From Candidatus Thiodictyon syntrophicum (lineage in GTDB: Bacteria > Pseudomonadota > Gammaproteobacteria > Chromatiales > Chromatiaceae): DNA of 64,000 nucleotides. Both the position numbers and the translations under genes were made by a program. Where the stretch lies: contig NZ_CP020370.1 of the NCBI RefSeq assembly GCF_002813775.1, positions 1,579,501 through 1,643,500 of the forward strand, read 5' to 3'. Below, piece after piece: positions 6,926-55,045 of this stretch. The notes below the pieces were generated by a model. It made no database searches. It was given only the letters and a program-made list of their open reading frames with translations, and was not told the DNA's origin. Numbering within the stretch: position 1 is the stretch's first letter; each line of letters begins with the position of its first letter.

Positions 6926-8932
6926 ATGAGCAAGCCACACCCGTTACTCGCCTCCCGCACCCTGGACAGCCTGGACAGCCTGGGTAAGGTGGTCACGGCG
7001 CGCGACGCGGTGCGCCTGATCGACCGCGGCGACACCCTGGCGACCGGCGGCTTTGTCGGGATCGGCTTTGCCGAAGGCCTGGCCGTGGCCCTGGAGGAGC
7101 GCTTTCTGGAGACCGGCGAGCCCCGTGACCTGACCCTGATGTATGCCGCCGGGCAGGGCGACGGCGGTGAGCGGGGCCTGAACCACCTGGCCCACGAGGG
7201 GCTGCTGCGGCGCACCATCGGCGGCCACTGGGGCCTGGCCCCCAAGCTCGGTCGGCTTGCGACCGGCAACCGGATCGAGGCGTACAACCTGCCCCAGGGG
7301 GTGATCTCGCACTGGTTTCGAGACGTGGCGGCCGGGCGCCCGGGGGTCTTCTCGCGCATCGGGCTCGGTACCTTCGTGGACCCCCGCCACGGGGGCGGCA
7401 GGCTCAACGCCCGGACCACCGAGGAGATCGTGGAAGTGGTGACCCTCCAGGGCCAGGAGTATCTGTTCTACCCCAGCCGGCCGGTCGACGTGGCCCTGCT
7501 GCGCGGGACGACCGGGGACTCGGACGGCAACATCACGATGGAGAAGGAGGCCCTGTTCCTGGAGGCCCTGGCCATCGCCACCGCCGCCCACAATTCGGGG
7601 GGGCTGGTGATCGTGCAGGTGGAGCGCATCGCCGAGCGCGGCACCCTGCCGGCCAAGGCGGTGAAGATCCCCGGCGTGCTGGTGGACTGCGTGGTGGTTG
7701 CCGAGGCCCCGGAGCACCACTGGCAGACCTTCGCCACGCCCTACGATGCGGCCTTCAGCAGCGAGATGCGCGCGCCGATGCGCTCGGTCGCCCCCATGCC
7801 GCTCGACCCGCGCAAGATCATCGCGCGCCGCGCGGCCTGTGAGCTCAAGCCCAACAGCGTGGTGAATCTGGGGATCGGGATGCCGGAGGGGGTGGCCAAC
7901 GTGGCCCATGAGGAGCGCATCCTGGAACTCCTGACGCTGACCACCGAGCCCGGGACCATCGGCGGACTGCCCGCCGGGGGGCTCAATTTCGGTGCCGCCC
8001 GCAACGCCCAGGCGATCATCGACCAGCCGGCCCAGTTCGATTTCTACGATGGCGGGGGCCTGGACCTGGCCTGCCTGGGGATGGCCCAGACGGACCGCGA
8101 GGGCAACGTCAATGTCAGCAAGTTCGGCAGCAAGCTGGCCGGGGCCGGGGGCTTCATCAATATCAGTCAGAGTGCCAAGACCCTGGTCTTCGTCGGTACC
8201 TTCACCGCCGGCAAGTGTCGGCTCGCGGTGGCGGACGGGCGCCTGGAGATCCATGAGGACGGGCCCGCGGCCAAGTTCGTGGAGGCGGTCGAACATCGGA
8301 CCTACAGCGGCCGCTATGCCGTCGCCAAGGGTCAGCCGGTGCTCTATGTGACCGAGCGCTGTGTCTTTCGCCTGCGCCCGGACGGCCTGGAACTGATCGA
8401 GATCGCCCCCGGGGTGGACTTGGAGCGCGACATCCTGGCGCGCATGGCCTTCCGGCCGATCATGGACCGGCCCCCGCGCCTGATGGACGCGCGTATCTTC
8501 CGCCACCCCTCAATGGGACTGCGGGCGGATCTCTTGGAGATCCCGTTGGACGAACGCCTGACTTACGACCCGCGCTCGCAACGGTTCTTCGTCAACTTCG
8601 AGCGCCTGACCATCAAGACCGAGGAGGATATCGCCGCGGTGCGGGCGGCGGTCAGCGCCAAGCTTGGACCCCTGGGCCGCAAGGTGGACGTGATCCTCAA
8701 TTATGACCACTTCAGCATTCGCCCGGACCTGGAGGAGGCCTACATCGCCATGGTGAAGGACCTGGCCGGGCGCTACTATGCGGGGGTAACCCGCTACACC
8801 ACCAGCACCTTCCTACGCATGAAGCTCGGCCGCGCCCTGGCGGCACGACCCTTGGCCCCCCACATCTACGAAAGCGAGGAGGAGGCGCGCGCACCGCTGC
8901 ACGAGGACGGGGCCGCAAATCCTCTCACGTGA
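6926..8932 (+). CDS. Acyl-CoA:acetate/3-ketoacid (propionate-type) CoA transferase, long form
   Basis: 668-residue family I CoA transferase with both alpha-like and beta-like halves in one chain. The N-terminal half has [20 protein letters not shown]; the second half has [18 protein letters not shown] and [15 protein letters not shown], where Glu341 fits the catalytic glutamate that forms the glutamyl-CoA thioester. YdiF and propionate CoA transferases are about 530 residues; this one has an extra C-terminal domain of about 130 residues (from [13 protein letters not shown]) seen in a long subgroup. It lies near a phasin and a thiolase, so a role in moving CoA between short-chain acids and the PHA precursor pool is likely. 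Cytoplasmic. Confidence 0.8.
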
Positions 8933-10901: not shown

Positions 10902-11008
10902 CGGACGGGGCATTCGCCCCGTCCGATGCGTTTATTTCGGACTCGCAGGTCCACGGCAGGGATCAGTGACGGAATAAAGGTTCGGGACGGGGCGAATGCC
11001 CCGTCCCG
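10902..11008. repeat. REP-like unit, copy 1 (paired GGACGGGG palindromes)
   Basis: Two palindromes, CGGACGGGGCATTCGCCCCG (continuing to 10925) and its counterpart with CGAATG in the loop (10983-11008), flank a 57-base spacer beginning TTTATTTCGGA. The same arrangement occurs at 53651-53757 and, interrupted, at 54744-55045. It directly follows the thiolase gene and may also stop transcription. Confidence 0.75.
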
Positions 11009-13294: not shown

Positions 13295-13387
13295 GGCCTT
13301 GATCATAATTCCGGTCGTAGGGTGGACAGGCGATAGTGCAGTCCACCGAATCCCGCTGGTGGACTGCGCTGCGCTTGTCCACCCTAC
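13295..13387. repeat. Palindromic repeat block with GGCCTTGATCATAATTCCGG end
   Basis: The left end (13295-13314) matches the terminal sequence of other repeat blocks in the window. The core is a nested palindrome: GTAGGGTGGACA at 13317 pairs with TGTCCACCCTAC ending at 13387, and GCAGTCCACC with GGTGGACTGC inside it. No matching right end is found; the block runs into the DUF433 remnant. Confidence 0.6.
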
Positions 13388-28649: not shown

Positions 28650-28710
28650 GGCTGCTCCCGATGATTGCTGAGGGTATGCCTGGAACGGCGCGTGCTCGCT
28701 TTCCAAGACG

Positions 28711-28841
28711 TGATCATAACTCCGGCCACGCGCCCTTGCGGCAACCCGTCGCGGCCGGGGGGCCGCTCCTACGGCGTAGGAGCGGCCCCCCGGCCGCGAC
28801 GGCTATCACCCTCGAGGTAGCCGAAATAATGATCAAGGTCC
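28711..28841. repeat. Repeat block B: 25-bp perfect palindrome between TGATCAT-type ends
   Basis: Left end TGATCATAACTCCGGCC, right end CCGAAATAATGATCAAGGTC. Between them two perfect 25-base arms (28748-28772 and 28776-28800, beginning GTCGCGGCCGGGGGGCCGCT) are separated by three bases, giving an extremely stable hairpin in DNA or RNA. Confidence 0.7.
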
Positions 28842-53631: not shown

Positions 53632-54014
53632 ACGTGCCCTTTGCCACTGCCGGACGGGGCATTCGCCCCGTCCGAAACGATTTTTCCGGACCTGCCGGCT
53701 CGTATCAGCGGTCCGCAAGGCAATAGACGTTCGGGGCGAGGCGAATGCCCCGTCCCGCCCGAGCGGCGTAGGGTGCGCCGTGCGCACCGAGTGCGCGCAG
53801 CGACCTTGAGTCCGGGTCGCTGTGCCGTGGGGTCGATCGCTGGGCGGGGTGCCCGCCGCGCCCGCGATGTGCTAGCCTAGGCCACGGCACAGGTCAAACA
53901 GAGTGCAACATCATGCAGATCGAGCGCCGCGTCAGATTGTTCACCAAGGACCCGGTACCTGCCGAGGTCGACCTGTAGCGCCGACGTCATGACTGACTGG
54001 GTCTATCTGCTACC
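53632..54014. other. 383-base gap after the second sulfatase
   Basis: Contains REP-like copy 2 and a 21-codon frame (53913-53978, MQIERRVRLFTKDPVPAEVD then L) of no recognised family. No full gene. Confidence 0.5.
53651..53757. repeat. REP-like unit, copy 2
   Basis: CGGACGGGGCATTCGCCCCG to 53674 and the paired GGCGAATGCCCCGTCCCG near 53740-53757, with spacer AAACGATTTTTCCGGACC. Left hairpin plus TTTTT may act as terminator for the sulfatase gene. Confidence 0.75.
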
Positions 54015-54743: not shown

Positions 54744-55045
54744 CGGGACGGGGGATTCCCCCCGTTCCAAACGCTTATTCCGTCGCGGACGGCCTTGATC
54801 AAGACCCCGGCCAAGCCGCACCGGCGAGCGCACGCGCGTAAGCCCGCTCCGGACGCTGGCAGCGCCGCACCCCAGTGTGGCGCGGCCTCGCGAGCGACCG
54901 CAGCGTGGCGTTCGGCGGATAGGCTGCGCCGCACTGGGGTGCGGCCCTCCCAGCGGCCGGAAATATGGTCAAGGCCGTCGCGGACCCTCGGCACGAGCCG
55001 GCGGGTCTGGGGAAAATGTTTCGGACGGGGCGAATGCCCCGTCCG
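54744..55045. repeat. REP-like unit, copy 3, split by an insertion
   Basis: Left palindrome GGGACGGGGGATTCCCCCCG and right palindrome CGGACGGGGCGAATGCCCCG (55022-55041). Removing 54791-54976 and one copy of the 9-bp flank gives a spacer of about 60 bases, like copies 1 and 2. Confidence 0.75.
54791..54976. mobile_element. 186-bp MITE-like element with inverted ends and 9-bp flank duplication
   Basis: Left end GGCCTTGATCAAGACCCCGG, right end (reverse complement) GGCCTTGACCATATTTCCGG: 22-base imperfect terminal inverted repeats (16 of 22). GTCGCGGAC stands directly on both sides (54782-54790 and 54977-54985), as expected for a target-site duplication. The inside has a palindrome (CGCTGGCAGCGCCGCACCCC with its mirror at 54926-54957). 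No gene inside. Confidence 0.7.

Follow-up and report, generated by a model that had tools for sequence, protein, structure and literature searches.

The 186-bp element without genes found in the window, i.e., the whole stretch of 64,000 nucleotides analysed here (C1:1579501-1643500), is a non-autonomous element (MITE). It is a member of a large family that shares its ends with an insertion sequence coding for a DUF6399 protein and multiplied in recent times; very likely, this protein mobilises both. We also regard it as reasonably likely that DUF6399 (PF19936) represents the transposase in an IS family so far unrecognised, present in many bacterial phyla and perhaps in one archaeal bin, and that this family drove a radiation of hundreds of Chromatiaceae MITEs with interchangeable palindromic cores. 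The source genome (7,738,984 bp in three contigs of 6,837,296, 484,824 and 416,864 bp) comes from the purple sulfur bacterium Thiodictyon syntrophicum (Chromatiaceae), most probably from strain Cad16T, whose published genome measures 7.74 Mbp in three replicons (PMC5944118). The main text of that genome paper mentions neither transposases nor insertion sequences (PMC5944118).

The initial annotation had described a segment of 186 bp with imperfect inverted ends of 22 bases, and its coordinates, 54791-54976, proved exact (Table 1); the two ends, GGCCTTGATCAAGACCCCGGCC and GGCCTTGACCATATTTCCGGCC, agree at 16 of 22 positions. As had also been proposed, the insert is flanked on both sides by GTCGCGGAC, and removal of the insert together with one copy of this repeat restores a REP-like unit of 107 bp, the same length as two others in the window and in line with the ca. 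40 intact full-length copies (106–108 bp) found genome-wide. The view that the inner element carries no gene holds as well, given that a transposase is absent and that the longest open stretch in any frame has 62 codons, too short for such a protein. Thus the element is short and gene-less, shares its ends with an autonomous element, is bordered by a duplication and has dispersed copies, all of them characteristics of MITEs. Two aspects had not been described before, namely that 8 bp is the commoner length of the duplications, 9 bp being found in a minority, and that the insert holds a palindrome with arms of 54 bp at 54848-54961. The search of the window against Rfam gave no match.

Table 1. 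Coordinates, within the window, of the MITE insertion, its REP-like target and related features.
Feature	Position	Strand	Remarks
Non-autonomous element (MITE), 186 bp	54791..54976		Exact ends and duplication; ca. 20 near-full-length relatives in the genome, 75–91% identity
Left terminal inverted repeat GGCCTTGATCAAGACCCCGGCC	54791..54812	+	1 mismatch to consensus GGCCTTGATCATNANNCCGGCC
Right terminal inverted repeat GGCCTTGACCATATTTCCGGCC	54955..54976	-	1 mismatch to consensus GGCCTTGATCAT....CCGGCC; inverted partner of 54791-54812
Target-site duplication, copy 1, GTCGCGGAC	54782..54790		Matches target preference GNC..GNC
Target-site duplication, copy 2, GTCGCGGAC	54977..54985		9-bp repeat
REP-like unit split by the MITE	54744..55045		302 bp; minus 195 = 107 bp
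Uninterrupted REP-like unit, 107 bp (comparison)	53651..53757	-	
Uninterrupted REP-like unit, 107 bp (comparison)	10902..11008	-	
Long imperfect palindrome, core of the subfamily of the window MITE	54848..54961		54-nt arms, 80% complementary; occurs also without GGCCTTGATCAT ends
Second MITE-like element, degenerate, 135 bp	28706..28840		Same type of ends; duplication not recognisable

The GTCGCGGAC repeats could also be an ancestral part of the REP-like unit, the middle having arisen by local duplication or by recombination between palindromes, and transposition would then play no role. Both the REP-like units and the insert are rich in palindromes and in GC, a situation in which chance repeats are common. 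However, the ca. 40 intact units lack the duplication, and in the related genome G107 several REP-like units match the left and right flanks with an overlap of 9 bp, i.e., they contain a single copy of the target (for example, C487:8805-8862 and 8854-8924 in the alignment). Instead of an ancestral direct repeat, which the initial annotation had named as the finding that would speak against mobility, insert-free units of the host genome and of its relatives hold the target region only once. At the window's own locus this evidence for an empty site comes from paralogous REP-like units, the matches of relatives to the orthologous region ending before the unit. Considering in addition the duplications found at sister elements (see below), we find an origin without transposition extremely improbable.

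The ends of the family have the form GGCCTTGATCA..., and their consensus, GGCCTTGATCATNANNCCGGCC, was searched in the genome allowing up to three mismatches (≤3). This gave 339 + 329 = 668 matches, against 1 + 1 for the reversed control. Far from lacking other copies with the same ends, the other outcome named beforehand as contrary to mobility, the 7.74-Mb genome holds hundreds of them, ca. 20 being near-full-length relatives of the insert. An unbiased, evenly spaced sample of 864 kb contained 20 paired elements, 11 of them with an 8/9-bp duplication, which scales to ca. 180 elements in the genome, while the end count allows at most ca. 330. Among the short elements catalogued, 44 of 79 were bordered by 8/9-bp duplications with no more than one mismatch (≤1); with shuffled flanks the mean was 0.95 (maximum 7), and therefore the duplications are not due to chance. 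The 41 distinct duplications showed a preference for GNC..GNC (p = 5e-5), to which GTCGCGGAC conforms. The movement of a sister copy can be seen at an orthologous locus: the MITE at L187:4919-5053 (duplication CAACTACC) has an empty site in G107, where only one copy of the target is present and the alignment runs without a break across the joined flanks (86% identity). In the case of another MITE (L078), an intact empty site was not found in the relatives. Taken with the many copies bearing duplications, the orthologous empty site bears out the original proposal that the inner element moves. Within the window there are also good matches to the MITE end at 13295 (+), 28239 (+) and 16977 (-) that have no partner within 400 bp and are probably decayed copies.

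The palindromic core of the window MITE is itself a dispersed repeat that also appears without the GGCCTTGATCAT ends, as in C1:2221257-2221506 (L070), where three core copies lie in tandem without ends. The same core was found inside MITEs whose flanks differ in other respects, which gives the impression that cores can be exchanged. In two regions (L072 and L073, C1:5859000-5868000 and 5910000-5922000) the MITEs form clusters in which they are stacked one against the next, and larger direct duplications of ca. 2 kb bear the same sets of MITEs.

Once-mobile elements might now be retained for a function, e.g., to terminate transcription or to stabilise mRNA at the ends of genes. In favour of this, the window insert, located in the space that separates a HEPN gene from the following one, is predicted to form, as RNA, a hairpin of very high stability (-132 kcal/mol). 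Against this, the insertion showed no sign of conservation at the orthologous locus, and some MITE copies sit where the joined flanks would make long open reading frames. Retention for a function is thus unlikely, and we favour the reading of the window MITE as a passive substrate of transposition.

The insertion sequence with ends beginning GGCCTTGATCA that the initial annotation had suggested looking for does exist. It was traced outward from copies with the end variant ...CGTTCCGGCC and is 1,916 bp long, with MITE-type ends and 8-bp duplications. There are 11 full-length copies, nine of which are identical base for base over the 1,916 bp, and one further copy that is interrupted. Since the copies are nearly identical and most of the full-length ones carry perfect 8-bp duplications, the element must have multiplied recently. 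Over the 14 insertion sequences considered, duplications were present in 11 (ca. 1 expected). A subtype of 1,917 bp is represented by three copies with a protein 67% identical, and homologous elements of 1.87–1.92 kb with such ends are found in other Chromatiaceae. With inverted ends, a target duplication, a single gene and recent multiplication, the DUF6399 element has the attributes of an insertion sequence. The consensus ends of the MITEs are identical to its own, so that, judging from sequence, it is likely the parent of the MITEs. The similarity is limited to the terminal ca. 22–28 bp, the interiors of the MITEs being palindromes unrelated to the insertion sequence, and therefore the MITEs are not accounted for by simple internal deletion.

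A different candidate parent, an element of 1,746 bp with the family's ends (L084 2990-4736, C1 ~2414418-2416164), was discarded because its gene codes for a transposase of the IS701 family and lies nested within a MITE of this family, whose core resembles that of L085 (AGGATTAACAAGATTTACAAG palindrome). As a separate observation, different genera share a conserved TACCCTTGGAAGTG...AAC.ACCGAGGG stretch, a possible promoter or binding site, upstream of their DUF6399 genes (L074:3820-3870 and L322).

The single gene of the 1,916-bp element codes for a protein of ca. 558 amino acids that matches Pfam PF19936 (DUF6399) over residues 400-546 (E = 6e-59) and contains a weak N-terminal helix-turn-helix. 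Pfam lists this domain as of ‘unknown function’, plasmid annotations call the homologues ‘DUF6399 domain-containing protein’ or ‘hypothetical protein’, and DUF6399 was named in none of the open-access papers searched. The transposase models of NCBIfam and Pfam gave no match above cut-off for the 558-aa protein, PADLOC and PHROGs gave nothing useful, and relatives of DUF6399 were not found in the viral collection. A scan of the genome collection detected homologues in Chromatiaceae, Accumulibacter, Competibacteraceae, Desulfobacter, Magnetococcales and Planctomycetota, and further in Chloroflexi, Verrucomicrobia, Cyanobacteria, Myxococcales and one Bathyarchaeota bin. Four of them are bordered by comparable ends with perfect 8-bp duplications that exceeded all shuffled controls: those of Chloroflexi (L264, GGCGTTGGTCAT...), Magnetococcales (L265, GGCCTCGGTCAT...), Desulfobacter (L267, GGGCTTGATCAT...) and Planctomycetota (L270, GGCCTTGATCGG...). 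The automatic end scan did not assign ends for several distant homologues (Verrucomicrobia, Oligoflexia, Myxococcales and Coleofasciculus), and for some others its scoring led it to a position a few bases inward of the likely end.

The AlphaFold model of the protein (mean pLDDT 90.1, pTM 0.82) has the order strand-strand-strand-helix-strand-helix-strand, a long helical segment (222-463) ahead of E474 and a helix after it, which is the RNase H order. VIA-align gave Z scores of 12–13.5 to the catalytic cores of retroviral integrases over residues 138-523 (rmsd ca. 3 Å over 120–139 residues), and D147 would align with integrase D64, to judge from the range ends of the alignment. Foldseek found nothing at E ≤ 0.001 in the PDB, its best row being the IS256-family ISCth4 transposase with a weak E = 0.017, and the absence of other families from such fold lists excludes nothing; by sequence, the PDB yielded no more than weak helix-turn-helix matches. 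D147, E148, D201, D221, H224 and an EGRN motif with E474 are invariant in 19 diverse sequences from different phyla, and D221-x-x-H224 fits a C/DxxH motif. The model thus shows a core of the RNase H/DDE-integrase type into which a helical segment is inserted, with the invariant D147, D201 and E474 as the putative DDE residues. Because like ends and perfect duplications recur across phyla, together with a model of the DDE type and invariant residues, DUF6399 is very probably a transposase family.

The possibility has to be weighed that another transposase with similar ends moves, or moved, the MITEs, and that the DUF6399 element is itself a passenger. Only ca. 22–28 terminal bases are shared, the IS701 copy mentioned above indicates that genes of other families can occupy the space between such ends, and some Chromatiaceae genomes (G107, G057, G074 and G044) have many ends although the DUF6399 gene was not detected in them. 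Yet that IS701 copy lies away from the MITE ends and has its own flanking repeats, DUF6399 genes are bounded by these ends and 8-bp duplications in several phyla, the 1.83–1.95-kb elements leave no space for another gene of the size of DUF6399, and the protein has a predicted DDE fold with invariant acidic residues. Over 116 Chromatiaceae genomes, at least three ends were present in 17 of the 21 with the gene vs. 13 of the 95 without it (Fisher p = 4e-9, uncorrected for relatedness). In G057 many contigs end 72–139 bp inside an element of the DUF6399 type with different flanks (L321-L326), which suggests a high-copy element collapsed by the assembly. We therefore consider the passenger role quite unlikely, and retain the DUF6399 protein as the probable agent of mobilisation; for the MITEs, the shared ends suggest that this would take place in trans.

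The mechanism that we propose is as follows. The N-terminal helix-turn-helix of the DUF6399 protein would bind the GGCCTTGATCAT-NNNN-CCGGCCA ends, and the transposase would mobilise its own element, as well as the MITEs in trans, joining them to targets with a stagger of 8 bp (sometimes 9 bp) and a preference for GNC..GNC sites. Repair of the gaps by the host would then make the duplication. The window MITE would be a passive substrate in this process, with no demonstrable function of its own.

The family proposed here is defined by elements of ca. 1.83–1.95 kb whose ends start with GGCCTTGATCAT or a similar sequence, with duplications of 8 bp and GNC..GNC targets, and is new in the sense that neither Pfam and NCBIfam nor the open papers searched recognise it. 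The IS256 and prokaryotic Mutator-like transposases (PMC7780238; PMC3942029) are similar in the DDE RNase H core, alpha-helical insertion, C/DxxH motif and 8-bp duplications, features described together for ISCth4, whose core carries a helical insertion domain (PMC7780238). However, the IS256-type models of Pfam and NCBIfam gave no match at E ≤ 0.1 for the DUF6399 protein, and there are differences in the ends (GGCCTTGATCAT vs. a TGTAAA subterminal motif in IS256 members), the targets (GC-rich GNC..GNC vs. A/T-rich) and the insertion domain (ca. 250 residues between D221 and E474 vs. 65 in ISCth4). The ISL3 family has 8-bp duplications, ends beginning GGC and a second aspartate near an FH motif, and may in these respects resemble the DUF6399 element; the ISL3 transposase models in Pfam and NCBIfam gave no match for the protein.

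Bacterial MITEs such as that in hupL of Thiomargarita (PMC4853749) and the TIMEs (PMC13367494) are likewise short, multicopy elements without transposase, with inverted ends, target duplication and a palindromic interior. The window MITE differs in that its ends belong to a DUF6399 element, whereas TIMEs derive from Tn3 transposons, and the repeat of the hupL MITE measures 10 bp, a parent of that MITE not being known. The host unit resembles REP/REPIN sequences, since it consists of two 22-bp palindromes in inverted orientation and is repeated many times, but here the REP-like unit is the target and the MITE the inserted element.

If DUF6399 is a transposase, a domain of unknown function would acquire one, an apparently overlooked group of insertion sequences could be annotated in many phyla, and a major repeat class of this genome, with its 668 ends, would be explained. 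The near-identical copies of the parent make a transposition test in a laboratory host straightforward. Just upstream of the interrupted REP-like unit we found a nucleotidyltransferase gene (PF01909, 54015-54335) followed immediately by the HEPN gene (PF05168, 54361-54717), an order that corresponds to the layout of MNT/HEPN toxin-antitoxin pairs.
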